64,000 nucleotides of DNA. Origin: Megalonaias nervosa (Eukaryota > Mollusca > Bivalvia > Unionida > Unionidae). The number at the start of each line of letters is the position of its first letter. The first letter of the stretch is position 1. The translations under genes were made by a program, and so were the position numbers. The notes below the pieces were generated by a model, which saw nothing but the letters and a program-made list of their open reading frames with translations, was not told where the DNA came from and searched no databases. This document shows, one piece after another, positions 19,190-56,360 of the stretch. The stretch spans positions 112,207 to 176,206 of the forward strand of contig JAECUM010000841.1 of NCBI GenBank assembly GCA_016617855.1. The letters run 5' to 3'.

Positions 19190-20700
<1,511 letters not shown>

Positions 20701-20702
20701 TC

Positions 20703-20709
20703 TTGTTAC

Positions 20710-20782
<73 letters not shown>
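20703..20782. repeat. (TA)n microsatellite
   Basis: About 36 TA units. Open frames here read as IYIYIY and are artefacts. Confidence 0.95.
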
Positions 20783-20783
<1 letters not shown>

Positions 20784-21060
20784 CACATAGCTACTGAAAC
20801 ACGTTTTGTTGTCATTTACGATTTCTGTCATTTCACACGCTTAACAAAGACTCGTACGAAGCCAATGTTCAAACGTAGACATGGCAAATAACTACCCAAC
20901 AATTTATCAGTCCACCAAGACATATATTTATACCATTTCAAATTATAAGTCAATCGCGCGGTGGACAAAATGTGAATCAAATAATATTAGCAGTGTCTGA
21001 AGTACATTTGCGGTTTCAAGGTCATCAGGAACCTTCGGTCATCAAGAACCCTCGGACGAA

Positions 21061-21297
21061 CTATTGCTTGATTCTACCCGCAATCATAATGCACATGCAT
21101 ATCAAAATCTGTTGTCGTTGATGGGCCGGGATCAAAACGTTGGCACATATCTGCAGATTTCCCAGCTTAATGTTCATATGTTGTGCCCGATTTATCGCTT
21201 TTCACTGGAATACCTGGACATGAACATAGTCTATGATCGGCTTGCACTTTCATTCGCATATAACCTGATCCCTGTTGTAACATATGCGTTGCATTGA
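21061..21297 (+). pseudogene. possible capsid-protein C-terminal remnant
   Basis: An open stretch of about 78 codons ending at TGA, with IYRFSLEYLDMN and SFAYNLIPVVTYALH. By position (just before the minor virion protein and protease remnants) and by its end it could be the last part of a Polinton major capsid protein. The match is by general appearance only. If right, it would be the half that is missing from the element at 40.5-56.4 kb. Confidence 0.35.
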
Positions 21298-21501
21298 TTC
21301 TCTGTGATAAGTTGCTGATGTTGGAGAGCGTAGGTGGTTGAATGAGAGTCTTTGATGTACCAGTGGAAAACCCGTAATTGTAGCTGTTTTAATTAAACAA
21401 CAAAGTCTAAAATAATGTCCTGCAACGAAGCTAAGTTTGGCCTTTGTCCAAAGCTGCTTACGAAAACAAGGAACGCAATATGAAACGATTGCTGGGTAAC
21501 A

Positions 21502-21870
21502 TTGAGGCTTTCTTTGCCACAGGTTTCTGAAGATAGCTCCTTATGGTTGTCCCAAACACAACTTAATCACCTTAATGCAGCCAAACAAAAGTTATGCAAG
21601 TCCGAGATGACACAAATACAAACCACTAGTGGAATATTTCCATTCATTGCGACCATTCTAGCATTTTTAGTTATTGCAGCTCCTGTGTTTGTACTGGCGT
21701 CTGCGTTAGGGGTAGTCGGAACAGCATCCGGATGGCTTTAGGAAAGGCAATTGTAAGCCGTATATCGTCTTGTAAACGAATAAAAAAGGAAAATGCCTTC
21801 GATTTTCAGGGACAACTCGCAGAATACCCCACAGGCCGAGGTCTTCGACTACCCGGTACAACTCGCAAAA
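21502..21870 (+). pseudogene. minor virion (pVI-like) protein remnant
   Basis: Encodes LWLSQTQLNHLNAAK, then a strongly hydrophobic segment (FPFIATILAFLVIAAPVFVL) and, after an in-frame stop and in the next segment, GRGLRLPGTTRKRQR. A short L-S-x-x-Q-L motif, a hydrophobic glycine/alanine-rich core and GRGL-type tail repeats is the layout of a small virion protein that commonly precedes the protease in animal Polintons; it is thought to be like adenovirus pVI. The same GRGLRL tail survives before the protease in the larger element (43333-43391). Confidence 0.6.
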
Positions 21871-21875
21871 GGCAA

Positions 21876-22270
21876 CGCGTCCATTAACCAATCTTGATTT
21901 ATTCATGATGGCAAAGTGAGTAAGGCTTTTCCTTGGTGTCTTTATAGTTGAATGAACTTGCATCAATGATTCCCAATGCATGAGAAACCGGTATCGTTAA
22001 CCTGGATTTGACAACAGGACCTGAGACTTACTGGGTTGCATACACGGTGACACCCAATTATCTTTTGTACTTTGACTCGTACGGGCTGCACCACCATTTG
22101 AAGTTGCTGATTATTTAACTCGAGGCAGTCAAAACCGTCTACTTTTTTTTATTCAACTCTACCGTTACAAACTCGGCTGTACGGGCCACTATTTGGACAT
22201 CTTGTTATTGAAGCACTGCGTGCACTTGAGCGTTCATCAACACCGCAAGGACTTGTTGATTTTACGTTGT
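21876..22270 (+). pseudogene. adenain-like cysteine protease remnant
   Basis: Around 21975-22110 the frame reads ETGIVNLDLTTGPETYWVAY then LLYFDSYGLHHH. This aligns closely with ETGIINLDGSSGPGTH and IIYFDSYGLAPP of the protease at 43400-43780. In adenovirus-type maturation proteases this region holds the catalytic His (Tyr here) and the acidic residue. The upstream part has frameshifts, one PNA-stop replaces PNH of the other copy, and the cysteine region is scrambled. It places this relic firmly among Polinton-type elements. Confidence 0.85.
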
Positions 22271-40515: not shown

Positions 40516-40750
40516 AGCAGCAGGGAGGGCGAATCCTACATCTTTTTAGAAGAGTCCATTCGCGAAAATAAAGCTTCCTACGGAGATAAAAATACAAGGT
40601 CAATAACGTCAAACTGAAGCTTCTAACCGACCGAGACTTCTTTAATTGGGTTAGCTATTTTTGTTATTGACGTTTATGTTTTCATTTTTTATGGCGTGTT
40701 CGTTTAACCGTCGGACACTCAATTTTTGTCGTCGCCCTCCCTGCTGCTGT
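40516..40750 (+). repeat. left terminal inverted repeat
   Basis: Starts AGCAGCAGGGAGGGCG and matches the complement of 56113-56360 along its length, with about fifteen mismatches and two short indels by eye. Its inner end reads CGCCCTCCCTGCTGCTGT, that is, the outer sequence inverted, so the repeat is itself framed by short inverted repeats. Confidence 0.95.
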
Positions 40751-40787
40751 GTGGGTGTAGTGTAATTAAATCATTAATATATGAATA

Positions 40788-41801
40788 ATGGAATCTCACA
40801 CAGCTAAACTAGCTCGACAGCGACTAGAGGCAATTAAGAAATATCTCCCCGTCCGTGATTCTGTCAAGCAACAACTACAAGCGCGTCAGGAGTCTCAGGT
40901 GGAATTTACAGAGGGTACAGAACAGTTATTTAAACCAATTGTCGAACCAACAAAGAAAATTGTCACAGCAACTGAGGCAACACAAAAAGCTCTTGAAACA
41001 TTGCCCGGCCGTCTTAAAGCAGCTCAACCACCACCCGGGCAACCTCCTCAACCACCACCTGAAGATCGGCCACAACCTCTGCCAAGGGTTAGAATTAACA
41101 TCATAGATAAATTCACACCTGAAGGTATTGCCGCTATCAAGGACCGAACCCGATTACTGGATATTACCGCGCATGGATATTATGAAAGAGAAAAATATGT
41201 AAAACCCGAACATATAAAAAATATGAGACCTGCCGATTGGAGAAGGGATGTATATCGCATCGCTACTGATACTCCGCAAATCAGATCTGAGGAAGATATT
41301 AATAATTTTAATATTTTTAACCAGGCAGTAGATGATTATATTGAACAAGTAAAACAAGAAAGAAAACAAAAAGAAGAAGAAATGAAGTTGCAACTTGAAG
41401 AAGCTAGACAATTAAGGAAACAAAGAGAGAGAAAAAAAGTCGAAACTTGAAGAGACTGAATGAGCAAAGAAACAAAAAGAAGAAGAAGATTTGGAATATG
41501 AAGAAATTAGACGAAGAAGGAGGGAATTACGTTCACCAAGTAAGAAAGAAACAACTGGAAGTGGTCTGAGCGATTGAGTCACTCAAGGAAGTGGTCTTAT
41601 TACTTTATGTCCCAATAACACCCTTGCCGATGTTGAATGATTAGAAATTTGATTGGAGGAAAACGAGCTGGTAATAGTTCCCCATAAATCATTAATGAAG
41701 CAGCTGCTATTTGTCAGATATTATTTACAGGCGGTATCTTGGATACTAATGTGTATCGATCCCTCATCGATGAAATCGCCGATGATTACCGCAGTGATTG
41801 A
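40788..41801 (+). pseudogene. coiled-coil, proline-rich virion-module protein (unknown role)
   Basis: Best preserved open frame of the element: 220 codons from ATG at 40788 to 41450. It starts ESHTAKLARQRLEAIKKYLP, has a proline-rich linker (PPPGQPPQPPPEDRP) near residues 81-96 and ends in a highly charged coiled coil (KQERKQKEEEMKLQLEEARQ). After the stop, the other frames continue the charged stretch, then GSGLITLCPNNTLADVE and, to 41801, NEAAAICQILFTGGILD with YRSLIDEIADDY, so the original gene was about 335 codons. It is the first gene inside the left repeat. Function unknown; a scaffold or core protein is possible. The C-terminal part resembles proteins of other invertebrate Polintons that I have no name for. 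Confidence 0.7.
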
Positions 41802-41839
41802 TTAAGGGTATACAATTATATCAGTGACAAGAAAATAAG

Positions 41840-42295
41840 ATGATCATACATAATGCTCACCGTGGACCGATCATGGTCAGGGTGATAAATTCGCGATTAC
41901 CAGTATACAAAGCGTTCTACGGAGATGGATTCGGTGATGTTATTCAGTGTCTATTTAGAAGGATGGCCCCAAAAGCAATACCGTTTGTAAAGCAACTGGG
42001 GATGAAAGCTATTGACGTTGTTCGTGATAAAGGTATTGGTGTTGTTGGTGATGTAAAGTATTCTCAGCAATCAAGGATAGACTAGCACGATTAATACGAC
42101 GAAAACCGCAGACGGTCCGACCTCAGCCAGTAACATTGCCCAGTACCGAAGTTATGCCTGCAAATGTTAGTAAAATAATAAATCAAGCTGCAAATCAAAA
42201 ATTAGCTGAGTTGGCTGGTGTACCACCATCAGAAAAAGAAAAAAAATATAACTGCTAGTCTGATAGCAGGAAGAGGTCCTCGTGTTAGACGATAG
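41840..42295 (+). pseudogene. putative minor virion protein
   Basis: Begins MIIHNAHRGPIMVRV, followed by YGDGFGDVIQCLFRRMAPKA, a basic-amphipathic segment typical of small minor virion proteins (adenovirus pVI/pX type) of Polintons. After a frameshift near 42060 the frame goes on with KDRLARLIRRKPQTVRP, and the end, after another shift, is AGRGPRVRR. Short, basic and glycine-rich; placed directly before the capsid gene. The role is inferred from layout, not from a clear motif. Confidence 0.5.
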
Positions 42296-42309
42296 CAAGT
42301 ATAATAAAG

Positions 42310-43296
42310 ATGTTCAAACGTGTATATGATCCCGCATTCGACATGGACGCACCAGTTATCAAGTATGAATCGATGCGTGATTATCAGTAGTATTCTTATG
42401 ACGCACAACAGCTAAATCAGCGTGGAAAAATCGAATTACAAGTTCAAGATACAAGTACATATTTCTTACCCGCTGAAGTAGAAGATGAAATTCTAAAAAC
42501 AGATGATACTGAATATGGAGCTGATGTTATGTTTGGTTTTGTTAATAATGGCATCATGGCGTTGTTCGACAGCGCCATATACATGATTGACGGAAGAAAT
42601 ATTGAATCGATTCAGAAAGACGTCGACGTTGCCACGATGATATTGAGTCTAGCAAGATATAGCGGTGATTATTCACGATCCGCTGGACGGTCAATGATGT
42701 TTATAAAGGATACTTCTTGACCACCCTGACAACAGACAGCATCTTTTGGTACAATTAACACGCGATAGTTCGGTTGATCCACAACCAGCTGGAATGATAC
42801 TCCGACCCACCGCTGCATTTTCGACGTTACAGAACACCAACCCAGAATTCAACTTAGGATTCGCAGCGCGTCGATCAACGCTGAAAGATGGAAGTAGAAG
42901 ATTTTCAAATATCTTTGGATTTTGCAGAAATGTCAGAAAGGTTATTTTCGGAGCCAAGCATACAGTTGTACTCATACGAAAGGCTACCGACGATGATGCA
43001 ATCTGGCGCCCTATCGGTGATGCAGGTAAAGTAATACTGACAAAACTTTCATTGTGGATGCCAGTAATGATCCATCACTCCCTGAAGAACAACGGTTGCT
43101 CTCTTTTATGGACTCGGGTGTTAAATCAACATTATCATGGTTGATGATGACCACAGATAGTGTTCAGAGTACATTTAATGGTTTATTCACATGGCAGATA
43201 GCATCACAGCAAGGTGTCTCTACACCGCGATATATATTTGTTGCTTTCCAAGATGCTGCACGAGTAAACTCACAAACACACACAACGAGCCATTGA
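42310..43296 (+). pseudogene. major capsid protein (double jelly roll), C-terminally deleted
   Basis: From ATG at 42310 (MFKRVYDPAFDMDAPVIKYE). Later segments in shifting frames include IFGFCRNVRKVIFGAKHTVV, DDDAIWRPIGDAGKVILTKL, SLWMPV, and LFTWQIASQQGVSTPRYIFV with AFQDAARVNSQT. The F-G-F-C, K-H-T, W-[MF]-P and F-x-W-[RQ]...P-[RK]-[YFW]-I-[FI]-V-x-F-Q pattern is that of the Polinton major capsid protein as I know it. It has one in-frame stop early and at least three frameshifts. The gene ends just after AFQDAARVNS, about where the second jelly roll should go on; the frame runs instead into the GRGLRL tail of the next gene. An internal deletion has therefore removed the C-terminal half. Confidence 0.75.
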
Positions 43297-43299
43297 AAT

Positions 43300-43391
43300 C
43301 TTACGTAAAAAAGGGGGAAGGTCTAAGACTGCCAGGAACCCCTCGTTCAGGGTACGGTCGAGGTCTAAGACTCTCCGGGACACATCGTTGA
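43300..43391 (+). pseudogene. tail of pVI-like minor virion protein
   Basis: Only the end of the gene is left: GEGLRLPGTPRSGYGRGLRL then SGTHR and a stop. The match to GRGLRLPGTTRK before the protease of the relic at 21.8 kb shows what is missing here: the LSQTQL motif and the hydrophobic core that the relic still has. It was fused to the capsid remnant by the deletion. Confidence 0.6.
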
Positions 43392-43399
43392 TACTTCCC

Positions 43400-43780
43400 A
43401 TGTCTAATTTTGATTTACTTGATGCTGCTAAGCGATTAAATATCAAACACTTCAGAGTTGTTTTTATGCGTGATCAATTACCAAAACAACCAAATCATGT
43501 TGAGACCGGTATCATCAATCTCGATGGAAGTTCTGGTCCAGGTACTCACTAGGTTGCGTACGCGATTGATCCACGTGGAATTATTTATTTTGATTCCTAT
43601 GGACTGGCACCACCGAAGGAATTTATAAAATATGTCAACACAGTACAAAGTACTGCGCTTCAAAACACTCCCGTATGGTATTCAACATTACCAACACAAA
43701 CAATAACTGATCCGCCAATATGTGGCCGTGAAGTAATTAATGTACTCGACGCTGTCATCATCAACGACACCGCCTCATAA
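43400..43780 (+). pseudogene. adenain-like cysteine protease
   Basis: ATG at 43400 gives MSNFDLLDAAKRLNIKHFRV, then GIINLDGSSGPGTH, a TAG stop at 43550, VAYAID, IIYFDSYGLAPP and, near the end, DPPICGREVINVL; 127 codons counting the stop. The catalytic triad of adenovirus-type maturation proteases is visible: His in G-T-H, Asp in Y-F-D-S-Y-G and Cys in I-C-G-R. The stop replaces the codon right after the His, which in the relic copy at 22 kb and generally in the family is Trp; a single TGG-to-TAG change explains it. Apart from that the frame is open. Role: cleaves virion precursors during maturation. Confidence 0.85.
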
Positions 43781-43853
43781 AGTCGTGCACGAGTACACCA
43801 CCAGACGATATAGCCACCCACCGTCGTTTTAAACGAGTCTTAGTGAATATACA

Positions 43854-44974
43854 ATGGTAGATATTTTCGGAAGATCTTCTTGGAGTCTCAAACTTCAAGG
43901 TGAATTACCCAAATACGCAACACTTGATCATATCAAGGACGAGAGAGATAATCTTTTACGTCTCGCAGATGTGGACCAAAATGAAGTCGTTGTTTTTCAG
44001 GATCAACAAGGACAATTAAAAACGAGTAATATCTGGTTGACAGATATTATTCTGCGAGTTCCAGATGCAATCGAAAATAACTTAGCGGTATTTACTAAGA
44101 ACGGTAAAATTAAAACCTCGGAGGAATCGGTCTTAACACTCATGGGAGAGATTGCTTGACGCATCAGAAGAATTGGAGATATTATGTATTGCGACCTCAA
44201 CATGAGCAAAAATACAATTATTAATGTGAGAGAACCAAAATCAGACGATGATGTGGCAACAAAAAGATGCGTAGACAGCAACAACAACACGATCAGAACT
44301 GAGATCAATGATCGTTTACTATCCGCCGGTGATACAATGACTGGTTCTCTGAACATGTCCAGTAATAAAATTACTTGTCTTAGAGAACCAGAATCAAACG
44401 ATGACGCTTCAACAGAAAATATGTCGATGATAGCAACATTCCGATAATGACATCGCTGATGACAATCGATGATGGATTGTCGACATTTAGATCTGATTAT
44501 ACTACTCACGCACAAACGTTTTTGAATTTTCGCAGAAACGCAACTAGAGCCATTAATGAACTTTTTGGAAGTCCAGCAGTCGTCGACATTAAACTCTCTG
44601 ATATAAATAAAAATATTAATGAATTTTTTGGAAGTCCAGCTGTCGTCGACATTAAACTCTCCGAAATCAAAAAGATTACCGACAGTGTAGTATATACAAT
44701 AGCGTCTGGATCAGCATTATAAGATCCAAACACTAATTCCATCCAACATCGCGCTGAGGTTACTGGCATATACAGATTCTCAGTACTCGACACTACATCA
44801 TTTACAATACACACCAATAATCAACGGCGTTCTTCAGTCAGGGCTATATCTGTTATGTTAGTAGTAATGGATCAAAACGACGAGATAACATTTGTAGTGG
44901 TCCCCGAAGAAAGGAGCCCCGGCTTGATTTACTATTGGTGTCTTGAACTAGTCGCTAAACTACCACCTACCTAA
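43854..44974 (+). pseudogene. fibre-like virion protein with phage-type repeats
   Basis: Starts MVDIFGRSSWSLKLQ. It contains two copies of a motif NMSKNTIINVREPKSDDDVA and NMSSNKITCLREPESNDDAS, each followed by K-[RY]-x-[VD]-D, the second preceded by GDTMTGSL. G-D-x-M-x-G-x-L-x-M-x-x-N-[KR]-I-x-x-L-x-x-P-x-x-x-x-D-A-x-x-K-x-Y-V-D repeats are known from phage tail fibres and collar-type fibres. A 63-bp direct repeat (44567 and 44630) gives FGSPAVVDIKLS twice. The end, ITFVVVPEERSPGLIYYW to KLPPT, may be a beta-rich head. Interrupted by TGA at 44157, a frameshift near 44430 and a stop at 44719. Probably the receptor-binding fibre. Confidence 0.65.
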
Positions 44975-44982
44975 ATTATATA

Positions 44983-45498
44983 ATGAACCAGTCAATCGAC
45001 TTTGTTGCAGCGCAACATTACAGATACAAGCAAGTTTGTTTGTCACAGACCCAACTGAAAAATATCATTGATGAATATACAGTAAAAATAAAAAATACCT
45101 CAGACGTATCGTTGTTACTGATACAATTGTTTATTCTGCATCCGCGGTCTTTGCTGAAACAGCAACTATAATCGGATCATTATCAGCGTCGTACGTAGTA
45201 GCACCAATAATAAGAGTTGGCATTACAGTTGTAGCTGGTGTTGCTGGTATTCTTAATATTATCGCAACAAAAAAAATATCTACGTGTGCGGTTGATAAAT
45301 TAAACGAATATACAACGCTGCTATCAGCGGCAACACACGCACATGCCAAATTATCATCGCTGATATCATCAGGGCTCAATGATGGAATAATATCAGATCA
45401 GGAATTCGCAGAAATGATTAAGGTTTACCACGACACCTCCGGCTTGGCAACTGGAAACCAAAACCCACCATCTCCGACAAAGACAGAGTCACCTTAAT
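44983..45498 (+). pseudogene. small membrane protein with helical C-terminus
   Basis: Starts MNQSIDFVAAQHYRYKQVCL and LSQTQLKNIIDEYT. After a frameshift near 45100 the frame continues with ETATIIGSLSASYVVAPIIR, a second hydrophobic stretch (ITVVAGVAGILNIIA), then a polar helix and GLNDGIISDQEFAEMI. Two likely membrane segments followed by a helical hairpin. The relic at 22.9 kb has a similar gene in the same place. Function unknown; possibly a membrane-active virion or entry component. Confidence 0.55.
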
Positions 45499-45535
45499 TA
45501 AAATCAGGAGGTAAATAATAATAATATCATCAACG

Positions 45536-46279
45536 ATGACATCACAAGAATTACTACAACAAATCGTAACTAATACAACACCACCAACAGCCACGATGAT
45601 ATCAACGAACTCAACTAATCCTGAATTCGACGTTATCTTTCCAACGGCAATTCCAGCCAAAGAAATAACATTAGCACAATTGCAAGTATATTACAGCTGG
45701 CCAAATATTAGATCAAAGTCATTCGGTGGGTTGCCCGCAAATAACTCATTAGTGTTTTCTTATAAAAATAAATAATCTGATGGAACTCCAGATTGGCAGG
45801 TTGTTGGTATTCCTACGGGCAGTTATCAAATAGAACAGATCAATAGTGAATTCCAACGCAGGATTAAATCTATCACAGGAAAAGAATCCAAAATCGCTAT
45901 TACAGTTCATGAGCCAACATTATAGGCTGCGATAGAAATATCAACGTCCGACTACGCCGTAGATATATATCAGTCATCGATCAGAACTGTATTAGGATGG
46001 CCAGAGGTAGTATCTGTTCATCAAGCACCACCAGAACCTCAACGATCCGACTTCGTCACGGACAAAAAAATATTTTTAAATTATCCAAGATATCGGAAAA
46101 ATTATCCATGGATTCAGGGAGTGACGAGTATAATACCCACTTTCATCGCGTCCACTAGTGAAAAGCTTGCTAAATTTAATCATCCTATATTTATTCTTGA
46201 CGATAATAAAAAGCTGACCTTCGATAATGAGATTTATGAATTTTTTCCAATAATATTAAATCCGAACACAAACAAGTAA
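45536..46279 (+). pseudogene. putative beta-rich virion protein 1
   Basis: 248 codons from ATG at 45536 to TAA at 46277, with just two in-frame stops (45773 and about 45923) and no frameshift. Shows FPTAIPAKEITLAQLQVYYS, then WQVVGIPTGSYQIEQINSEF and, later, SIRTVLGWPE. Proteins with a short N-terminal beta stretch, an I-P-T-G-x-Y-x-I-x-x-I-N box and an L-G-W box are found in many animal genomes, and I associate them with Polinton-like elements, where a structural role is likely. The exact function is not known to me. Confidence 0.5.
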
Positions 46280-46329
46280 GCAACAATCTGCGAAATCTGT
46301 TTTTTTTTTTATAACACAATATTACAACA

Positions 46330-46994
46330 ATGATATTAGACAACAAATAGTCGAAACTATACAACATTTAAACCAGGTTGCATCAGACCTCGAATTTTTC
46401 AACAAAATCATCGTCGAAACAGTAATTATCAGACATGCAGATTATAGTATTCCAGTCTATCCCTATGAAAAAATAAATCTTAAACAATTATTTCTTGAAC
46501 ACTTTAAAATAACTGAAGAACAATTACCAAAATTCGTAATACCAGAATTCAAGTCAGACGAATTAAGAAAAACAGTTAACGATATTATTGATGAACATTA
46601 TCCCCAGGCTATTGCCGAATGGAGAAAAATATCCCCTCCAGCGATTATTCTCAAATATAACAATGATCCATACGGTGGAGGTCGTCATATATCACCAGGT
46701 GTTGTCGCGATCACATCAACGATCGCAGTTAATTTGGTGTGTGATGCTATTGATGGAAGTTATCAAGTAGATACTGAAAAATCCAGGCAGGCACAACAGG
46801 GATATATGTTATATTCATTTACCCCTGAAGTACCTCCTGGGTTTTTAATTGTGTCAATGCCCTTTAATCCGGTTTATCTACGATGCCATAATCCGCTATT
46901 ATCACGGATACATTTTAGAATTACTGACCAGGCCGGACACTTACTTGATTTAAGGATCGAAGTTTTGGCAATAAGTCTGTATGTGCGTTTGTAG
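46330..46994 (+). pseudogene. putative beta-rich virion protein 2
   Basis: An uninterrupted frame of about 220 codons to TAG at 46994, with IRQQIVETIQHLNQVASDLE near the start, SPGVVAITSTIAVNLVCDAI in the middle and RIHFRITDQAGHLLDLRIEV at the end. The closing I-x-[FI]-x-I-[TL]-D-x-x-G-x-x-[LI]-x-[FL] stretch is typical of virion proteins of this element class. The start is unclear: the ATG at 46330 is in a different frame from the main body, and a T run lies just upstream, so a small indel probably broke the N-terminus. Confidence 0.45.
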
Positions 46995-48375
46995 CTACTT
47001 TTTGTTGGAATTAAAAAAAAATCTGAATCTGAATCAGAATTTAATAAATATTATAATCAGAATCAGAATCAGAATAAATATTATAATGAAATTTTATTTT
47101 TTTTTACTGAAAATCAGACTAAACTCTGAAAATCGATGTGGTAAACACTCGAATAAAAATTAAAGTCAGACAAAACTCTGAAAATCGATGGGGTAAATGG
47201 TACTCAAAATTATATTTTTGGTGATAAAATTACGCTGAGACAACAAAAATATTATTTTTACTGACCAACAACAACAATAATATTATTATAATAAAAATTT
47301 TATTTTTGCTGATTATCGTTCAGATTTCATAATTTTAATAGGGTAAAGGGTACTCAAAATCATGATTATCGTCCAGATTCCACAATTTGATGGGGTAAAT
47401 GGTACTCAAAATTATATTTTTGGTGATAAAATTACGCTGAAACAACAAAAATATTATTTTTTACTGACAACAACAACAATAAATATTATTATAATGAAAA
47501 TTTTATTTTTATTGTTTTCAGACTGATTTTCTAATTTTGATGGAATAAATGGTACTCAAAATCATGATTATCGTCCAGGTTTTATAACTTGATGGGGTAA
47601 ATGGTACTTAAAATTGTGATTATTGCCCAGATTTCGTAATTTGATGAGGTAAATGGCACTCAAAATAACAAAAATCTCTCTGAAATTGATTTTAAAAAAA
47701 TTAAAAAATCGGAATAAACATAAATATTATAATCTGATTCTGTATAAATATTATTATCAGAATAAAAATAAATATTATAATCTGATTATGTATAAATATT
47801 ATTATCAGAATAAAAAAGTTATAACCTGATTCTGTATAAATATTATTATTAGAATAAAAATAAATATTATTATCTGAATCTGAATCAGAATAAATATTAT
47901 TATCAGAATAAAAATAAATATTATTATCTGAATCTGAATCAGAATAAATATTATTATCAGAATAAAAATAAATATTATTATCTGAATCAGAATCAGAATA
48001 AATATTATTATCAGAATAAAAATAAATATTATAATCTGAATGAGAATAAATATTATTATCAGAATAAAAATAAATATTATTATCAGAATGAAAATAGACA
48101 TTATAATCTGATTCTGAATCAGAATAAATATTATTATCAGAATAAAAGTAAATATTATAATAAAAATAAATATTATAATCTGATTCTGCATAAATATTAT
48201 AATCAGAAAATAAATATTATTATCAGAATAAAAATAAATATTGTTGTCAATAAATTTTATCATCAGAATAAAAATAAATATTATTATCAGAATAAATCTG
48301 ATTCTGAATAAATATTATTATCAGAATAAATATTATAATGAATCAGAATGAGAATAAAAATAAATGAATAAAAAA
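46995..48375. repeat. AT-rich minisatellite inside the element
   Basis: From about 47640 to 48370 a unit such as ATAAATATTATTATCAGAAT, alternating with AAAAATAAATATTAT and TCTGAATCTGAATCAGA phrases, repeats dozens of times. From 46995 to 47640 a longer unit with GATGGGGTAAATGGTACTCA repeats four or five times. Both lie in the space between the rightward structural genes and the rest of the element. Open frames here are artefacts. Confidence 0.88.
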
Positions 48376-48912
48376 AGAGCAAAAGATGGTACCTGACGAG
48401 CAAGTTGAATGACGGAAATATATCTTCTCGGGTAATTGTTATTTTTTTTCTCATTGCAATTGTTGGATCGCTAAGAGAGATAGGGGTAATAAAAACACCT
48501 CCTAAGTGAACCCCGGGTGCTTTGGGGTTCGGGGGTGCCAGGCGAGTTACAGCTGGAATTAGTTCTTATTTTGACAGTTTTACAATCACCCGTACACTAG
48601 TATATCTCGTCATCAAATGCCCGCAGGCGCCCCCAATTATAATAGCATCTGTCGCCGAATGCAAAACGATATGTCTATCGCATTTTTCGAGACTAGAACA
48701 TGTGAAGAGTTTCCACTAGTGTAAACGTACGCGAACGCCTTAACCCCACGACTACCGGAGCTCTTACAAATACACAGGTAAATTTAAGTATATAACTATT
48801 CGCTACCACAGTCACTGGTGACAGCGCTTTCACACTCAGAGACTTCGTCAGTGACCTTGTCACTGAGTTTACAATCCTATATAAAAAAAGTTAAGCTGTC
48901 TCACACGTGAAC
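48376..48912. other. no gene seen within the element
   Basis: GC content rises somewhat; no recognisable protein on either strand. Could hold regulatory sequence between the two halves. Confidence 0.45.
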
Positions 48913-49228
48913 TTACAATCTTTTTTTTGTTTCGTATTCGCGTGATAATTCTGATCTAACTTTCTCAATTGCGTTTGCGAGTGAAACAAATTTTCGAATA
49001 TCCTCATCAAAAACTACATAAAGCAGAGATTGTTTCATGGGCAGTTGAAGTAATTTAATGAATCTATACTCAGCTGCTAGTGTATATCTCCCATCATATT
49101 TCCGTTCCTGACGCGCTTCAAAATCATTTGTGATTTTTTTCAGGGTCAAATTGGTCAGATAATTCTATATCCTCATCATTTAATTTTTTAATCTCAGAAA
49201 TAATTGCATGAATATTTTCGGAATTCAT
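48913..49228 (-). pseudogene. small unknown Polinton gene
   Basis: On the minus strand, starts MNSENIHAIISEIKKLNDED. After one frameshift near 49135 it continues as ITNDFEARQERKYDGRYTLA and SLLYVVFDEDIRKFVSLANA to a stop at 48913; about 105 codons. Mixed helical, no motif I recognise. Being open apart from one shift, between other leftward genes, makes it a likely real gene of the element. Confidence 0.5.
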
Positions 49229-49558
49229 TATTTAATAAATATTTATTTAAAATAAAAGTATTTCTGAATCTGAATAAAAATAAAAATATTTATTATATAT
49301 ACATTTCTGCATGATGTCATTCGGGAGGTTAAAGTACATGTAGGTCTATTATATACTCCTGTACAACTATCTTACTTCTAAGCTCTAATGATAACTTACC
49401 TGGATTGCACGCAGTGGAGAAACAACAAATAAATAATCGCGGCAGTCATATGATATTACGCAGTTACAAGCGGGGCAACTGCTTAATTACTCTACCAGAG
49501 AAAGCGTTTGCTTGACAGAGTTATCTCCCTTCATCTTTGCAAACAACTACAACAAAAT
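49229..49558. other. no gene seen within the element
   Basis: AT-rich start resembling the minisatellite (AATAAATATTTATTTAAAAT), then unique sequence without an open frame. Confidence 0.5.
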
Positions 49559-50107
49559 TCAAAATTGAGTCAAAGTAAATTCGGGTTTGTTAGTGTCTGC
49601 ATCTAACACAATCTGAAGATACTGAAATATTATTTTTTGTTTATATTTCTTCGAATACGCCGATTTATATATTTTATCCCCGACACGTTGTACAGCAGGT
49701 ATGCAAATATGAAAATATTTTCCATCTGCATTCATTGATTGAAATATTATCTCTTCGCCAGTTTCCACGTTCAAAGATTTAACAACTTTCGGAAATTTAT
49801 TATATTTTCCAGTTTTATCAAATTTACAATTTTGACTTTGTGTAATAAGTCGTAAATTACATAAAGAATTATTTTTCTGATCTGAATCAATATAATCAAT
49901 AACAAAACCATCTTCGATTGGTCCATGAAAATATTCGTAGATGAATTTATGTGATAAACATCTTTTATCCCAGCATTAAATCTGAGATAACCGGCATTAT
50001 CAACAACACCGACTGCTTTTTTTTAGCCGACAGTGCCTAATTACACCATCACGAGGTGCCTTATAATTCTTGATGGTGGGATGCTTCACAAATTCATTTT
50101 GCTCCAT
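49559..50107 (-). pseudogene. HNH homing-type endonuclease
   Basis: On the minus strand from ATG at 50107 (MEQNEFVKHPTIKNYKAPRD). After two frameshifts near 50020 and 49960 comes HKFIYEYFHGPIEDGFVIDY and IDSDQKNNSLCNLRLITQSQ. H-x-x-[IV]-Y-E-x-F-x-G-P-I-x-x-G-x-V-I-D-[HY]-I-D-x-[DN]-x-x-N-N-x-x-x-N-L-R is the HNH fold of phage and intron homing endonucleases. Here the usual H of the D-H-I-D box is Y, so activity is doubtful even before the frameshifts. The C-terminal 85 residues include a second beta-helical stretch. In mobile elements such genes may act as cargo or as nicking nucleases. Confidence 0.75.
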
Positions 50108-50230
50108 TTATATAATAATATTATTTGTCTAAATTATTATTTTATTGTTGTGGTGAAAATCTGGCAAGATAGTCTTCGGCGCTTTTAATGAGAGACTCAT
50201 TTCCGACGCCATCGGTATTATTTTTTTTTT

Positions 50231-50470
50231 TTAATCATAATATCGTTTCAGCTGTCCGTATTGTTTACCACCGCATTTTACATACAGCTGCGTTTCTCCT
50301 CTAACCCCAACACCACACTTCAAGCACGGTTTTTGTCCTAGATTCTCTCGATGAACGCTTTGCATTTGACATCCACAGAATTCATTTACTCAAGCCCTGT
50401 TACAAGGAACTGAAGAACCAACCATAAACCACTTGCATTTATTGTTTTCCTGAGTCGTTGTATATATAAT
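50231..50470 (-). pseudogene. small cysteine-rich (zinc-ribbon-like) protein
   Basis: Minus strand: NNKCKWFMVGSSVPCNRA, a stop, then VNEFCGCQMQSVHRENLGQ, KPCLKCGVGVRGETQLYVKC and GGKQYGQLKRYYD. Six or seven cysteines in C-x-C and C-x2-C spacing suggest zinc binding. The end Y-V-K-C-G-x-x-x-Y is similar to the beginning of the phospholipase-like gene at 55.3 kb. The start codon is not clear. A regulatory or DNA-binding role is possible but not shown. Confidence 0.45.
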
Positions 50471-50509
50471 TAAACTTGAATTTAAATATATATTTGCCTT
50501 AATTATGAT

Positions 50510-52485
50510 ATGGAGGAATTTGCGAGATTATCTGCGATTAAGCCTTTGAAGCCAGATTCGATCACGACAGAATAACCCCTCAATTACCAAGGCGAGCTTT
50601 GGTTGATTTACCGAATAAGACTCTAATCAATCGTATCAGTGAAGCAAAGAGAAAATTTCGCAACGATTGTCCAGCTCATGTGTGGTCAAAATTTCAAAAT
50701 TATACGCGACACCGATGGTGTTGTCGATGCTACAATGAATGATAAGCGAGCAACGACAATTATTAATTATCTTGACATTGCACGAAAATATATTTTTAGA
50801 ATAAAACTTATCGTGGCGACCGACGACGACACATGGATTATCCGTGACAAACGTGATCCTGTTTTATTACACCACACTGGAAATATTGTCACGTTAAATA
50901 AAAATTCAAAACCATGAATACTGACTGTATCGACAAACCTTATTATGAACGAGCATACCCTGTAACGGCAATTGTTTATGCGATATATCCGCTGAATGAT
51001 AAGCCTGACGGTGATAAACTTTTACCGATGAAAATTTCTCGCCTGAATTGTGTTGCTGATCGAGTTACAGAACATTTCACAAACGCGAAACAAGGAAACG
51101 GTTTAACGGATCTAAGACGTAAAAAAGTAAATGAGTGGGCAGAAACAGTTAAAGCTACTGGAGCGCCTATCAAAGAGGTTGCTGAACTGGAAAAGAAATT
51201 AAGATTTCCAATAAGAGTGAAGACATTAACTGGAGAGATTTTATACGAATCGAAATATTTAAAAATGGAGATTCGATAGAGATTATTGATCATAACGCAC
51301 ACGCGTGGACTTCTGATATAACAATATTTCAACAAAATCGAACTGTTAAATTCTATAATGCTGATATGTTTGATTTTATCAGAAATATTAGTAAGAGTGA
51401 CCCTGTGTCCGTGTGGTTGTTTCAAAGTTCAGTTTGTACGACCTAATGGAGATATTTATGGTACAGAATCTCTCCAAGACGAATTAAAAATCTTGCATTG
51501 AAGTACACGAACGATACTGATGTTATCAAACGATTACTCAGTAATTGTTTTACCGTTCCGTCAGTTGCTGCCCACGCTGCTCAGAGGAAAAATTCATGGA
51601 AACCAACACGATTGGAATTTCTTGAAGATGTTCAATGCAGTTATATCGAACACGGACACGGTGGATTATGGAATACTAAATACGATTATAAAGATGCTAT
51701 ATCGGTTGATATGGTTGCATCTTATACTGGAAGTTTTCTTGGATACGGAGAATGTTCTGAGTATTTCAAAAGATTTGGACATCCAAGACATGAAATGATC
51801 AGAGTTGCGATAAATGGACCCTTACCAGATTTTGACTTAACTGGATTTGTCATTCGAGTTTGCACAGAAAAAAACTTTCATCCGACTGTCGCTGTTTGGT
51901 TTGGAAAATATTTTATCGAACGCGGTTGGGCTGCAATAGTTTTATTACGATATATGCTTGATGTGAAAATATTGATATCGTTAACTGTAAGTGAAGCAAT
52001 TATATAATATCGTCCGCAGAAACAAGTTTGGTTACCACAACAAAAGAAATATTCTGATGATGAAAATCCTGATATGACTGATTTTGAGAATAAATTCGCA
52101 AAGGATCTTGGGAGGAAAATAATTGGTAAATTTACACAAGGAGGATCATATTATCATAAACGACATTGTTGTAGATAAATTATCGGCGAAGCTGAACTTG
52201 ATTTATAATGCTGATACAATGGAGAGAACCACATTTATCAGTCGGAATAATATTAATTTATCGGATGGAACTAAATTAGGTACGATTGTGAACTATACTG
52301 ATGGTGATTCACCACAGTTTACTCATTTTGGATCTTCGATGCTCGCGTATGATTCGATAAATTTATTATCGATGATAAATAGATTTTCTGATACCGCGAT
52401 TAGAGTCGCTACAGATTCATTTTATATGAATAAAAAATACGCAGGATTGCTAAAACAATTACATATCGGAGCTGATGCATCATGA
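50510..52485 (+). pseudogene. divergent family-B-like DNA polymerase part of fused replicase
   Basis: From ATG at 50510 through at least five frameshifts: FKIIRDTDGVVDATMNDKRA, IIRDKRDPVLLHHTGNIVTL, then EFLEDVQCSYIEHGHGGLWN, ISVDMVASYTGSFLGYGECS (about 51700-51745), KDLGRKIIGKFTQGGSYYHK (about 52090-52145) and AIRVATDSFYMNKKYAGLL (about 52399-52455). I read these last three as PolB motifs A, B and C in the right order and spacing, with D-x-x-x-S-Y for D-x-x-S-L-Y-P and A-T-D-S for D-T-D-S. No clear 3'-5' exonuclease motif is visible. It differs strongly from the PolB remnant at 18.6 kb. Only one in-frame TGA (52483) separates it from the helicase. Confidence 0.55.
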
Positions 52486-53674
52486 AGCGAACGGAGAATA
52501 AAGCGAGAAAAGATTCTTAATTATTCTGAATCTGCCGACGTTGAATCTAAGGAAATATGTTACAAAAATAAACAGATGTCAAAACTTTCATCAGCTGCAT
52601 CGGTATATGATCCTGTGACTAGATATAAAACAGTTTATCTCAATGGACCCGGAGGTTCTGGTAAAACAACACGTGCGATTGAAATATTCCTGAACAGTTG
52701 TTCATGGAATTTTGATATGGTTGTTTTGACACCCACACATAGACTAGCCAGTGAAATGACTGAACGAGGAGTTAAATCTCATACTTATCACAGCTTCTTC
52801 CGATGGAAGGGAGATACATAGACTCATGAACGAATGGGCGAGAGACATATTCCTTAGATTATTATTTGGGATGAAATTTGTACGGTATCGTTGGAGGTAT
52901 TAAAAATATTTCTTGATTGGTTGTTAACGAGAAATACTGTGATTATCATGTGTGGCGATCATGGTCAACCTCCACCTTTTGTTGGATTATCTCCACATGA
53001 ATGGCAGATTATTTTGAGGAGATAACTGATGATCATAGAGCTCATGATGAACCACTGAAAGAATTTCAAAGATTAATCAGACTGCAGCCAGATAAGATTC
53101 AATGTGAGATAATGCGCCAAGTAATTCCAGAGACTACGATGAATGATTTTTCGAATTTATGGAAACCTGCTGATTTGATAGTTGCAAGTCCGAAGACAGT
53201 TCGTGATACACTTCAGCAAGAATTATTTCTGTTACATATAGAAAAGTTTTCAGATCTACCTGTTCCATTGTGTTATCGCCCAGCAGACACACGTAAGCAA
53301 AATATTGAAGCTGAGATTCCTGGAACCTTGACAGAGTCATGGGAGAAACAAAAACTCGTTCTTAATGATAGTGTTGTTGTTGATGAGAATGCCGTTGAGA
53401 GCGCATTAACGATGGATAAGTCTCCGTGGACTCTAGGATACGCTATAACGATTCGTTCGTCACAAGGATGAACTATTTCTGATACAAAAATCTGGATTGT
53501 CGATGATCGGATCGAATGGTCAAATTTAGTTTATCTAGCAGTGTCGAGAGTTAGAAGATTGTCTCAGCTGCGGAGGGTTATCATAGACTGCGCAATGACT
53601 CAGGAAAACAATGATAGCAATTGTGATGATATAGTGAAGAAAACTTTGCTGGTTATCAGCGATCTGACATAAAA
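52486..53674 (+). pseudogene. SF1 (Pif1/RecD-like) helicase part of fused replicase
   Basis: In the same frame as the polymerase end, then KTVYLNGPGGSGKTTRAIE (motif I, Walker A), VVLTPTHRLASEMTERGVKS (Ia), IIIWDEICTVSLEVLKIF (motif II), IIMCGDHGQPPPFVG (motif III), GYAITIRSSQG (motif V) and NLVYLAVSRVRRLSQLRR (motif VI). All are standard for SF1B helicases of the Pif1/RecD type. Breaks: in-frame stops at 52819, about 52855 and 53469, and a frameshift near 52995. About 395 codons. It would unwind DNA ahead of the polymerase. Confidence 0.88.
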
Positions 53675-53911
53675 GGTAAACGTGACTTTGCTGTTGATAC
53701 TGAATTTATCATGGCACTGAAACAACGACAGAATAGTCATTGTGCGAGCTGTAATACAGTAACGTTATGGCAGTATTCGAATAATAATCCAAAATAATTT
53801 ACCGTGGATAGAATTAATAGTAATCTCGGTCACACACGCGAAAATGTGATGTTGACCTGTCTTGAGTGTAATCGACGTAGGGGTGCTGGTGTTCTGCTTT
53901 CACAGAAGTGA
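53675..53911 (+). pseudogene. HNH nuclease domain at the end of the replicase
   Basis: One frameshift beyond the helicase end, the frame reads ENFAGYQRSDIKGKRDFAVD, SHCASCNTVTLW, a stop, FTVDRINSNLGHTRENVMLT and CLECNRRRGAG. Paired C-x2-C motifs around a V-D-R-I-x-S-x-x-G-H-x-x-x-N-V core make an HNH (zinc-stabilised) nuclease fold. The gap to the helicase is only a few codons, so this is best seen as a C-terminal domain of the same protein. It ends at TGA 53909-53911 and overlaps the integrase gene tail-to-tail by 12 bp. Confidence 0.8.
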
Positions 53912-54892
53912 AGGCGGTGGTAATTGTGCATCCTCAGGAATTACTTGTAATTGTTCGCGTACAAATCCACGCTGAGGAGCAGTTGAATCTAATCTGTGGA
54001 TTGCAGGTCTACCCGTGGATCTTACCACGCTGGATATTTTATGTGTGGTCACACTCCAAATAGGATCAGTTGCTCTTTTTTTACCCCCTTCAAGTTCACC
54101 AGGTTCATATAAATATCTTACAGTCACACTACCTAGTACTGATTGTTTTGAGGAAGAGTCACGTCGTTGTATTGGTATATTTTTTCTTGTGATCGCGCTG
54201 ATGGGTTTCATAGAAGTTGCACGAGTAATTTCATTATTTAACGCAGCTAAAATACTTGGTAGTCTTATAACCCATTCGCGAGATCCCTTATTCCCGGACT
54301 TAAGGTCGGTGAATATTTCCTTTGCATATTGATATCCAAATAACCGCTCAGCAAGTGTTCAATTAAATCGCTCAACGATTGCCTGATCCCTATGAATTGC
54401 GGTGTGCCCTCGTCTGATTTTTACGTTATGTTTTTTCATCAGAGATGATACTGCACCAAACAATTCTTTGCCAGGATCAACTTGTAGTAGCTGTGGCCAT
54501 CGCAAGGGTCCTTGTTAATAAATTCATTCAGAAGCAGATGCTACTTCAGTGCTGTTTTTGTTGATAGTGGTTCTGCTTCTTTATATATACTTGCAACATC
54601 AACGACAGTTAACGCTTATTTGTATGTGCGTGATTGACGTCTACGTGTTTTAATAAAATCATGCGGTAAAAACAAAATATCTGCCTGATGAACTTCATTG
54701 GGAGCACTGACATCAAAATATGCGTACTGAATTTTTTTTAGGTGGTGGTAGATAAATTTGCCATATTGCCTGTCGTGCTAACCAATTCGCAGCAACAGAA
54801 CGTGTGACACCTGCTGCATCAGCAAGTTTACTAATCGCTGCTCAACCCCTCCAATATCCTCTTGGGCTATAATAAATCGATTCCATCATTAT
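53900..54892 (-). pseudogene. rve-family integrase (Polinton type)
   Basis: Minus strand from ATG at 54892 (MESIYYSPRGYWRG). An N-terminal helix-turn-helix-like part (SKLADAAGVTRSVAANWLAR) comes first. Then EVHQADILFLPHDF (first catalytic Asp), LLQVDPGKELFG (second Asp) and HRDQAIVERFN (catalytic Glu, about 35 residues on), followed by LPSILAALNNEITRATSMKP and an SH3/chromo-like end (VRYLYEPGELEG, PIWSVTTHKIS, RGFVREQLQVIPED). That is the D,D-35-E core and C-terminal layout of Polinton integrases. Four or more stops and frameshifts are present. It cuts and joins the element ends to host DNA. Confidence 0.88.
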
Positions 54893-54908
54893 AATAATAC
54901 TCGGTTGA

Positions 54909-55331
54909 TTAATTACCGGCCCCTAGCACTAGTTTACCTTTCATTGCAGATTTTATTAAAAAGCTAGCAAGTTTTTCTCTGAGAGATTTATTTTTTATGG
55001 AATATAACGAGTGAATCAACTTCACATCTGCAATATGTCGTTGTTGTGAATCCGGATTTTTATACGCGACATCATGAATGTGACATGCTTGATCAATCGC
55101 ATTTATTGGATACTGTCCAGGATGTTGGTTGGTATCATTCATCAAGTCGCATGTCAAGTCGGGTTCCAGGACCACAATAATTATATCCAGGAAGATGTTT
55201 TTCTCCTGGGTATTTAGTCCATGGAGTCCCTGGTAATTTTCCAGTGAAGTAGCGATATCACCACCTGTCTTCGTAGGAGACGAAATTAATCTGTATTTCC
55301 TTCTACCACATTTCACATACCTGCCTGTAAG
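54909..55331 (-). pseudogene. phospholipase A2-like virion protein
   Basis: Minus strand. Begins RYVKCGRRKYRLISSPTKTG; an alternative frame then gives YPGEKHLPGYNYCGPGTRLD (calcium-loop type Y-x-G-P-G), and the first frame resumes with AIDQACHIHDVAYKNPDSQQ (D-x-A-C-x-x-H-D, the PLA2 active-site helix), ending in a basic tail KSAMKGKLVLGAGN. Two compensating frameshifts (about 55230 and 55150) lie on both sides of the loop. PLA2 domains of this kind occur in parvovirus VP1 and in some Polinton/adintovirus-like elements, where they help cross endosomal membranes. The start is uncertain (no ATG in frame at the expected place). It lies 16 bp upstream of the integrase on the same strand. Confidence 0.82.
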
Positions 55332-55437
55332 CGCACACTTTTATTGTTTGTTATTACTGTTGTTAATCCACTGGTGGGGGTGGATGCTCTGCATCGAACA
55401 CAATATAAATCCATATTATTTATTATATTTCTACAAC

Positions 55438-56107
55438 ATGGATATCATTGACTTCTCAGGGACACGAAAGCAAGAGCTAATCAAGCATTATCCAGCGCTA
55501 CCAAATTCTATCAGAGCAATTATAATAGGTCCATCTGGGTCTGGTAAGACACGATTGTTGCTTAATCTGATAATGAGATGGCTCAAGTGGGATAAGTTGC
55601 ATTTAGTGTCACCATCTGTAGATGATCAGCGATGCTACGATGTGCTTAAAGATTTTAATGAAGAAGCGAAGTCGTCAAATGAAGACGGTAATGATATTAT
55701 TGATTTTATCACCGATATTGATGAAGCTCCATCCGTGGATGATCTCGATGGATTTATTAATAACCTCGTAGTATATGATGATGTGATGCTGGAGAAACAA
55801 TCAAATCCAGCTCGGATATTTTCCAGAGGTAGACACAAAAAATACTGATGTAATTTATGTTACTCAGCGATATGCACAAATATCTAAAGTTATCAGAGAC
55901 AATTGTAATCTTTTAGTTGTGGTTAATCGAGTCGATACACATACTCTGCGAAACATTCATCAGACTTGGTGTTCAGGGGATATGGATCTGATTAAATTCA
56001 AAAATTTCTTCTCAAAAGAGCAAGCTACCCCACACGGATTTATCACGATAAATTTATATGATCCTCGGTCGCGATATCGTATAGGTCTCGATAAAATATT
56101 TCGTTGA
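55438..56107 (+). pseudogene. A32-type DNA-packaging ATPase
   Basis: ATG at 55438: MDIIDFSGTRKQELIKHYPA, then IIIGPSGSGKTRLLLNLIMR (Walker A at residues 30-38), LHLVSPSVDDQRCY, NNLVVYDDVMLEKQ (Walker B), and after one frameshift near 55838, DVIYVTQRYAQISKVIRDNC (sensor-like T-Q) and NLLVVVNRVDTHTLRNIHQT. This is the FtsK/HerA-type packaging ATPase of Polintons, virophages and large DNA viruses. About 223 codons. Only one frameshift, so this is one of the best kept genes. Stop at 56105-56107, five bases before the right repeat. Confidence 0.92.
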
Positions 56108-56112
56108 CAGAC

Positions 56113-56360
56113 ACAGCAGCAGGGAGGACGACGACAAAGAGTGAGTGTCCGACGGGTAAACGAACACGCCATAAAAAATGAAAACATAAACGTCAAAAAC
56201 ATCAATAACAAAAATAGCTAACCCAGTTGAAAAAGTCTCGGTCGGTTAGAAGCTTCGGTTTGACGTTATTGACCTTGCATTTTCATCTCCATAGGAAGCT
56301 TTATTTTTGCGAATGGACTCTTCTAAAAACAAAGTTGTAGGATTCGTCCTCCCTGCTGCT
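56113..56360 (-). repeat. right terminal inverted repeat
   Basis: The complement begins AGCAGCAGGGAGGACGAATC and matches the left repeat throughout, with a 12-bp longer stretch near GACGTTTTTGATG that duplicates a neighbouring phrase. The inner boundary again carries the inverted outer motif (ACAGCAGCAGGGAGG at 56113). Confidence 0.95.

Follow-up and report, generated by a model that had tools for sequence, protein, structure and literature searches.

Relatives of a fused replicase

In Polinton-like viruses (PLVs), in Tlr1 of Tetrahymena and in transpovirons, a vOTU domain, a protein-primed polymerase palm and a superfamily 1 (SF1) helicase are followed by a C-terminal GIY-YIG or HNH nuclease (PMC11071308). 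The palm of these proteins, named pPolB-S1H for protein-primed PolB (pPolB) and SF1 helicase, lacks the exonuclease and the first Asp of motif C, and their C-terminal nucleases have been attributed to intein invasions (PMC11071308). GIY-YIG domains behind SF1 helicases, and HNH domains in front of helicases, occur in cryptophyte and other PLVs (PMC12220804), and OmPLV of Oxyrrhis marina has an SF1 helicase fused to a pPolB, with the helicase N-terminal and the exonuclease kept (PMC12721341). The subject here is a gene at positions 50511..53972 (forward strand) of a 64,000-nucleotide stretch from the bivalve Megalonaias nervosa, referred to as the window (112207-176206 of contig JAECUM010000841.1, in an assembly of 2.19 Gb). 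It is very probably the decayed replicase of an integrating Polinton-like virus; intact copies of this gene encode, in one chain, a predicted DNA polymerase of the protein-primed type, preceded by a likely protease and followed by a superfamily 1B (SF1B) helicase and an HNH nuclease.

A polymerase-helicase-HNH fusion is not new as a kind, being already described for protist PLVs (PMC11071308). The earlier note on this DNA had proposed a different replication module in a Polinton body; it is right that the usual Polinton polymerase is replaced, but the replacement belongs to this described kind. With pPolB-S1H proteins (‘Tlr1-like helicases’) the family of the window gene shares a palm that has kept motif A and replaced the first motif-C Asp, an SF1 helicase following the palm in the same chain, and a C-terminal nuclease, there HNH or GIY-YIG; the region ahead of its palm resembles their vOTU domain. 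It differs in its metazoan-looking genome, in its mollusc and Glomeromycotina relatives and in the fixation of HNH; the comparison with Tlr1 itself is one of descriptions. OmPLV likewise holds an SF1 helicase and a pPolB in one protein, in the reverse domain order. Phi29-type polymerases share the palm fold; the phi29 system has a separate terminal protein, a full exonuclease and no helicase. No published account of the fusion in animals, molluscs or mycorrhizal fungi was found, and it goes unmentioned for such hosts in the excerpts of PMC11071308, PMC12721341, PMC12220804, PMC10120064, PMC4642659 and PMC11071296, although other published work may hold cases. A replicase type of protist viruses is extended to an animal-looking genome, and its named relatives there come from molluscs and mycorrhizal fungi.

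Intact sister copies carry one open frame

The window copy is broken. P0001, an intact natural sister protein of 1179 aa, matches it by tblastn in 8 collinear pieces (50551-53972, 43-95% identical) that spread over all three forward frames, indicating that stops and frame changes have interrupted the gene; translation of the region likewise gives open pieces in each forward frame. The start codon lies at 50511, and the 3′ end is about 60 bases beyond 53911, where the earlier note, otherwise correct in taking the region for a fused gene, had closed it.

A search of the genome with window piece 53001-53468 returned at least 150 places, the window itself included, and 16 of the places listed hold a single open frame of 1163-1189 codons from stop to stop. 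Among 20 genomic copies examined, the longest frame was ≥1160 codons in these 16 and 921-1134 codons in the other four. All three domains, HNH included, lie in the open frame of 15/16 long-frame copies (the frame of L035 is lost before HNH), and no stop separates palm from helicase in the open sister frames. The HNH residues D, H and N were present in 18/20 genomic copies, L035 and L048 losing the frame upstream of the domain, and in L042 Tyr replaces the last HNH Cys. The intact frames establish that the fusion is real and that the stops and frame changes are a property of the window copy. In the window, as the earlier note had observed, the end of the palm and the start of the helicase share a frame with a single stop between them, and its proposal that polymerase, helicase and HNH form one fused protein is borne out by the 1179 codons of P0001, counted from its start codon.

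Domains and their conservation

Conservation was assessed in a diagnostic-site table of P0001 and 75 homologues (P0002-P0076) from three homologue searches. Rows lacking a residue at a given site do not enter its count, and the outlier P0076, which is without palm motifs, was kept both in the counts and in the tree below. The three domains named in the earlier note were all upheld by profile and fold matches, but they do not make up the whole protein: some 340 residues precede the palm and bear a vOTU-like protease signature. This region (50929..51500, forward strand) is marked by NCVA and HNGHAW signatures in homologues, with the vOTU-type Cys in 60/60 rows and His in 59/62; its OTU fold matches are weak.

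The palm region (51540..52545, forward strand) was placed by tblastn pieces, with coordinates scaled from P0001 residues 341-705. Its fold model has as best solved match a phi29-type protein-primed DNA polymerase, in agreement with the earlier assignment of the 51.5-52.5 kb part to a PolB palm. The fold alignment spans phi29 residues 54-499 and hence includes part of the exonuclease region. Residues 105-190 of P0028, located past the vOTU-like part and ahead of motif A, belong to the stretch that aligns with phi29 from its residue 54 onward and may be what is left of an exonuclease. Among viral fold matches, H6WBE3 (999 aa), an entry without a name, ranked first. A first structure prediction (P0002, 17-row alignment) had a mean pLDDT of 53 and was usable only for helicase and HNH.

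Motif C of the window palm reads ATDS (52408-52419, forward strand). The motif A Asp is kept in 69/71 rows and the second motif-C Asp in 72/73, while at the usual first motif-C Asp position 73 rows have Ala (68), Val (3), Thr (1) or Leu (1), and never Asp. All 20 genomic copies have ATDS and not DTDS. Decay as the cause of ATDS is ruled out, as the change is family-wide.

The helicase (52573..53583, forward strand) is of superfamily 1B, Pif1/RecD2/Dda-like. PF13245 matched window piece 52486-52818 (E 5.8e-07) and P0001 (8.9e-12), fold matches were to Pif1, Dda and RecD2, and the Walker A Lys is present in 67/69 rows. NCBIfam matches were without exception far under cut-off and bore RecD2/TraI-type helicase names, apart from a single TsaE; a sequence search for solved relatives found helicases, plus weak matches of no helicase nature (coactosin-like proteins, E 0.12-0.94, residues 40-95; PacI, 0.44; Cas9, 0.59-1.1).

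Ratios of non-synonymous to synonymous change (dN/dS, NG86-type) were computed for 15 of the 20 genomic copies, L035 and L045-L048 being excluded as incomplete. Between L034 and the other 14 they were 0.31 (N-terminal), 0.22 (vOTU), 0.11 (palm), 0.17 (helicase) and 0.20 (HNH); among the 14 they were, in the same order, 0.37, 0.24, 0.24, 0.13 and 0.18. These values are descriptive, given the dependence between pairs and the choice of copies with open frames. Palm and HNH are both under constraint.

The HNH domain is fixed at the end of the protein

The HNH nuclease domain (53639..53896, forward strand) was recognised by PF01844, with an E value of 0.0011 on 53798-53908 that is under the family's cut-off, and by phrog_1035, a phage HNH family labelled endonuclease VII. 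All five queries matched the latter (6.5e-15 to 1e-09), namely the intact sister domain (1.9e-12) and four whole homologues. The phrog_1035 label is an annotation, and Pfam endonuclease VII gave no match up to E 1. T4 endonuclease VII is a junction resolvase.

Patchy presence among relatives, as expected of a homing insertion, is not what the alignment holds. The HNH His is found in 52/54 rows, and 44/45 rows with at least 110 residues past helicase motif VI (P0001 included) have the complete set of D, H, N and C; the sole exception, P0071 (Gigaspora), has Ser for Asn and keeps the other three. Six other rows reach motif VI but stop short of that length: the set is complete in P0069 and P0070, P0054 has H and C, and no HNH residues aligned in P0004, P0055 and P0076.

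Relatives in molluscs and fungi

Named relatives include P0027 from the bivalve Sinanodonta woodiana, whose sequence ends inside the helicase, before the HNH region, and three proteins from the sea slug Elysia crispata, two of them with HNH. Thirteen homologues are fungal (P0055, P0058, P0062, P0063, P0065, P0068-P0075), carry no functional name in their sources and come from Diversispora, Gigaspora, Racocetra, Cetraspora and Ambispora. Lineage records place Diversispora, Gigaspora and Ambispora in the Glomeromycotina, to which Racocetra and Cetraspora also belong. One further homologue lies in a metagenome-assembled genome of the bacterium Thiodiazotropha, and is taken for host DNA. Among 31 matches in IMG/VR to the patterns used there was no relative.

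A FastTree phylogeny was built from palm and helicase columns for 73/76 rows (P0025, P0026 and P0072 were omitted as too short) and midpoint-rooted, the root being pulled by the outlier P0076. The window family, P0002-P0005 and the Sinanodonta protein formed one clade with support 1.0, as did 12 fungal proteins.

Alternative explanations

Seen by itself, with its broken frames, the window would allow separate genes that appear fused only through decay, but sister copies, and likewise homologues found elsewhere, have the parts in a single open frame, which refutes this and leaves it next to no probability. It is also improbable that the palm is a dead relic, in a protein that is really a helicase-nuclease using a host or canonical Polinton polymerase. 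The absence of the first motif-C Asp from every genomic copy and every scored row would suit such a relic. Against it stand the near-universal retention of the motif A Asp and the second motif-C Asp, a palm dN/dS that is the lowest of all regions when L034 is compared with the other copies (but not when those are compared with one another), and the existence of active polymerases with the same change (PMC11071308).

The HNH domain may be suspected of being a homing endonuclease lodged at the gene end and serving its own spread only. The same has been suggested for the nucleases of pPolB-S1H proteins (PMC11071308), GIY-YIG and HNH vary in kind and place among protist PLV helicases (PMC12220804), and a free-standing HNH_3/NUMOD1 gene adjoins the replicase in the very same element. 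We nevertheless hold this to be rather unlikely, since the domain occupies the same place in all but one of the complete rows, including mollusc P0048 and P0052 and fungal P0058, and is conserved with dN/dS near 0.2. That the copies stem from a protist or fungal contaminant of the assembly, and not from an animal chromosome, is very improbable: relatives do exist in fungi and in unnamed sources, but the matches fall in at least 150 places of a 2.19-Gb assembly, on contigs that reach 412 kb among the matches listed, the same assembly contains canonical Polintons, and the named protein nearest to the window family in the tree, in the fully supported clade above, is from a bivalve and on a 143-Mb record. 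The replicase of an integrating virus is the reading preferred here.

A possible replication cycle

Sequence or model shows that the parts are fused, that key residues are kept across the family, that the palm is phi29-like and the helicase Pif1-like, and that capsid, ATPase and integrase genes lie in the same element. In the cycle proposed here, the N-terminal region of the replicase would supply, or be similar to, the terminal protein from which synthesis is primed at the inverted repeats, and the vOTU-like domain would cut this part free. The palm may then copy by strand displacement, aided by the fused helicase, which would stand in for a presumably lost proofreading domain. HNH might act on branched DNA or junctions that arise during replication or packaging, a step proposed on account of its fixation, its conservation and the uniform phrog_1035 matches; nick-priming by HNH, as the earlier note had suggested, is a poorer fit to a protein-primed polymerase than a role in resolving or processing branched DNA. 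The integrase would finally insert copies, leaving short target duplications. Tentatively, the protein could be an all-in-one replisome that unites its own primer protein, a releasing protease, a polymerase capable of strand displacement, a helicase and, as a fixed part, an HNH resolvase for branched replication intermediates; as an integrating virus it would have spread in molluscs and arbuscular mycorrhizal fungi as well as in protists. Such nucleases have been seen in print as passing selfish insertions, and the fixed HNH provides an alternative that can be tested.

The integrated element

The replicase gene lies in an integrated element of about 15.8 kb (40516..56360), delimited by terminal inverted repeats, by collinearity with other copies and by target duplications in sister copies. 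The left repeat (40516..40752, forward strand) begins AGCAGCAGGG, and the right repeat occupies 56111..56360 on the reverse strand; left and reversed right repeats are identical in 223/250 columns. Copies in C7307, C9746, C1985 and C3376 are collinear with the window element, and both ends were seen in the last three. Two of these three have exact target duplications, 5 bp or longer (CGAGC in C9746, CACCG in C1985; the end of C3376 is altered), and the window element is flanked by ATTGC and ATTTC (4/5 bases alike). Assigning the final T of the right repeat to the target gives a match in 6/6 positions for C9746 and in 5/6 for C1985 and the window. Canonical Polintons have a target-site duplication of 6 bp; with this alternative assignment of the T, 5 bp and 6 bp are indistinguishable here.

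Gene identities were taken from Pfam matches to open reading frames (ORFs) of the C7307 copy, and the decayed window counterparts were located by tblastn. On the forward strand, a capsid region (42310..43284) is 52% identical to the 464-aa double-jelly-roll major capsid protein of the sister copy (PF21738, 1.3e-20). It is followed by a decayed adenain-like cysteine protease (43307..43756; 73% to the sister ORF, whose PF00770 match of E 0.005 is under cut-off), where the window has no ORF of 80 aa, and by a decayed fibre-like repeat protein (43971..44965), which in the sister copy had no Pfam match over cut-off and in L049 (4120-5106) has repeated DAATKKYVDD modules. A decayed 501-aa structural protein candidate without Pfam match lies at 45536..46988. 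Between window positions 47000 and 49500 the element contains an AT-rich repetitive stretch (G+C about 0.3) with multiple matches to the flank of the C1985 copy.

The decayed, free-standing HNH_3/NUMOD1 homing-endonuclease-like gene (49616..50089; 49% to the sister ORF; PF13392, 8.5e-12) is just upstream of the replicase, on the opposite strand, and is open in the C7307 copy. Downstream of the replicase, the reverse strand carries a decayed RVE integrase (54182..54886; 59% to the sister ORF; rve PF00665, 2e-07, just under cut-off) and a phospholipase A2-like protein in two pieces (54912..55429; sister PF08398, 3.2e-12), and the forward strand an A32-like packaging ATPase, also in two pieces (55519..56101; 80-84% to the sister ORF; PF04665, 1.9e-12). 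The canonical Polinton set of RVE integrase, double-jelly-roll major capsid protein, cysteine protease and A32-like ATPase is represented, protease and integrase falling under curated cut-offs. A second, more decayed relative of the element lies at 19534-22245 of the window, with integrase (19534-19668), capsid (20825-21371) and protease (21972-22245) remnants detected by tblastn.

Canonical Polintons in the same genome

Canonical Polinton polymerases are also abundant in the assembly, with at least 150 matches, from at least 75 scored candidates, to the palm and exonuclease parts of the profile, and in many candidates the open frame is some 1,366 codons long. One such copy, L008, encodes an exonuclease and palm protein with a DTDS motif and no helicase within the 971 residues examined. 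The body of the canonical Polinton/Maverick (adintovirus) is like that of the element described here, with integrase, double-jelly-roll capsid, protease, ATPase and inverted repeats, but it carries a stand-alone pPolB with exonuclease and DTDS, in contrast to the helicase-fused palm with ATDS. Canonical polymerase and fused replicase gave no significant sequence match to each other. Integrase and ATPase of one canonical copy are 29% and 31% identical to those of the replicase-fusion element, a level so low as to indicate two distinct Polinton lineages. Because the fused replicase belongs to a Polinton body with an integrase, and canonical Polintons occur in the same genome, exchange of replication modules becomes directly traceable. 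The two lineages have been amplified side by side in one genome.
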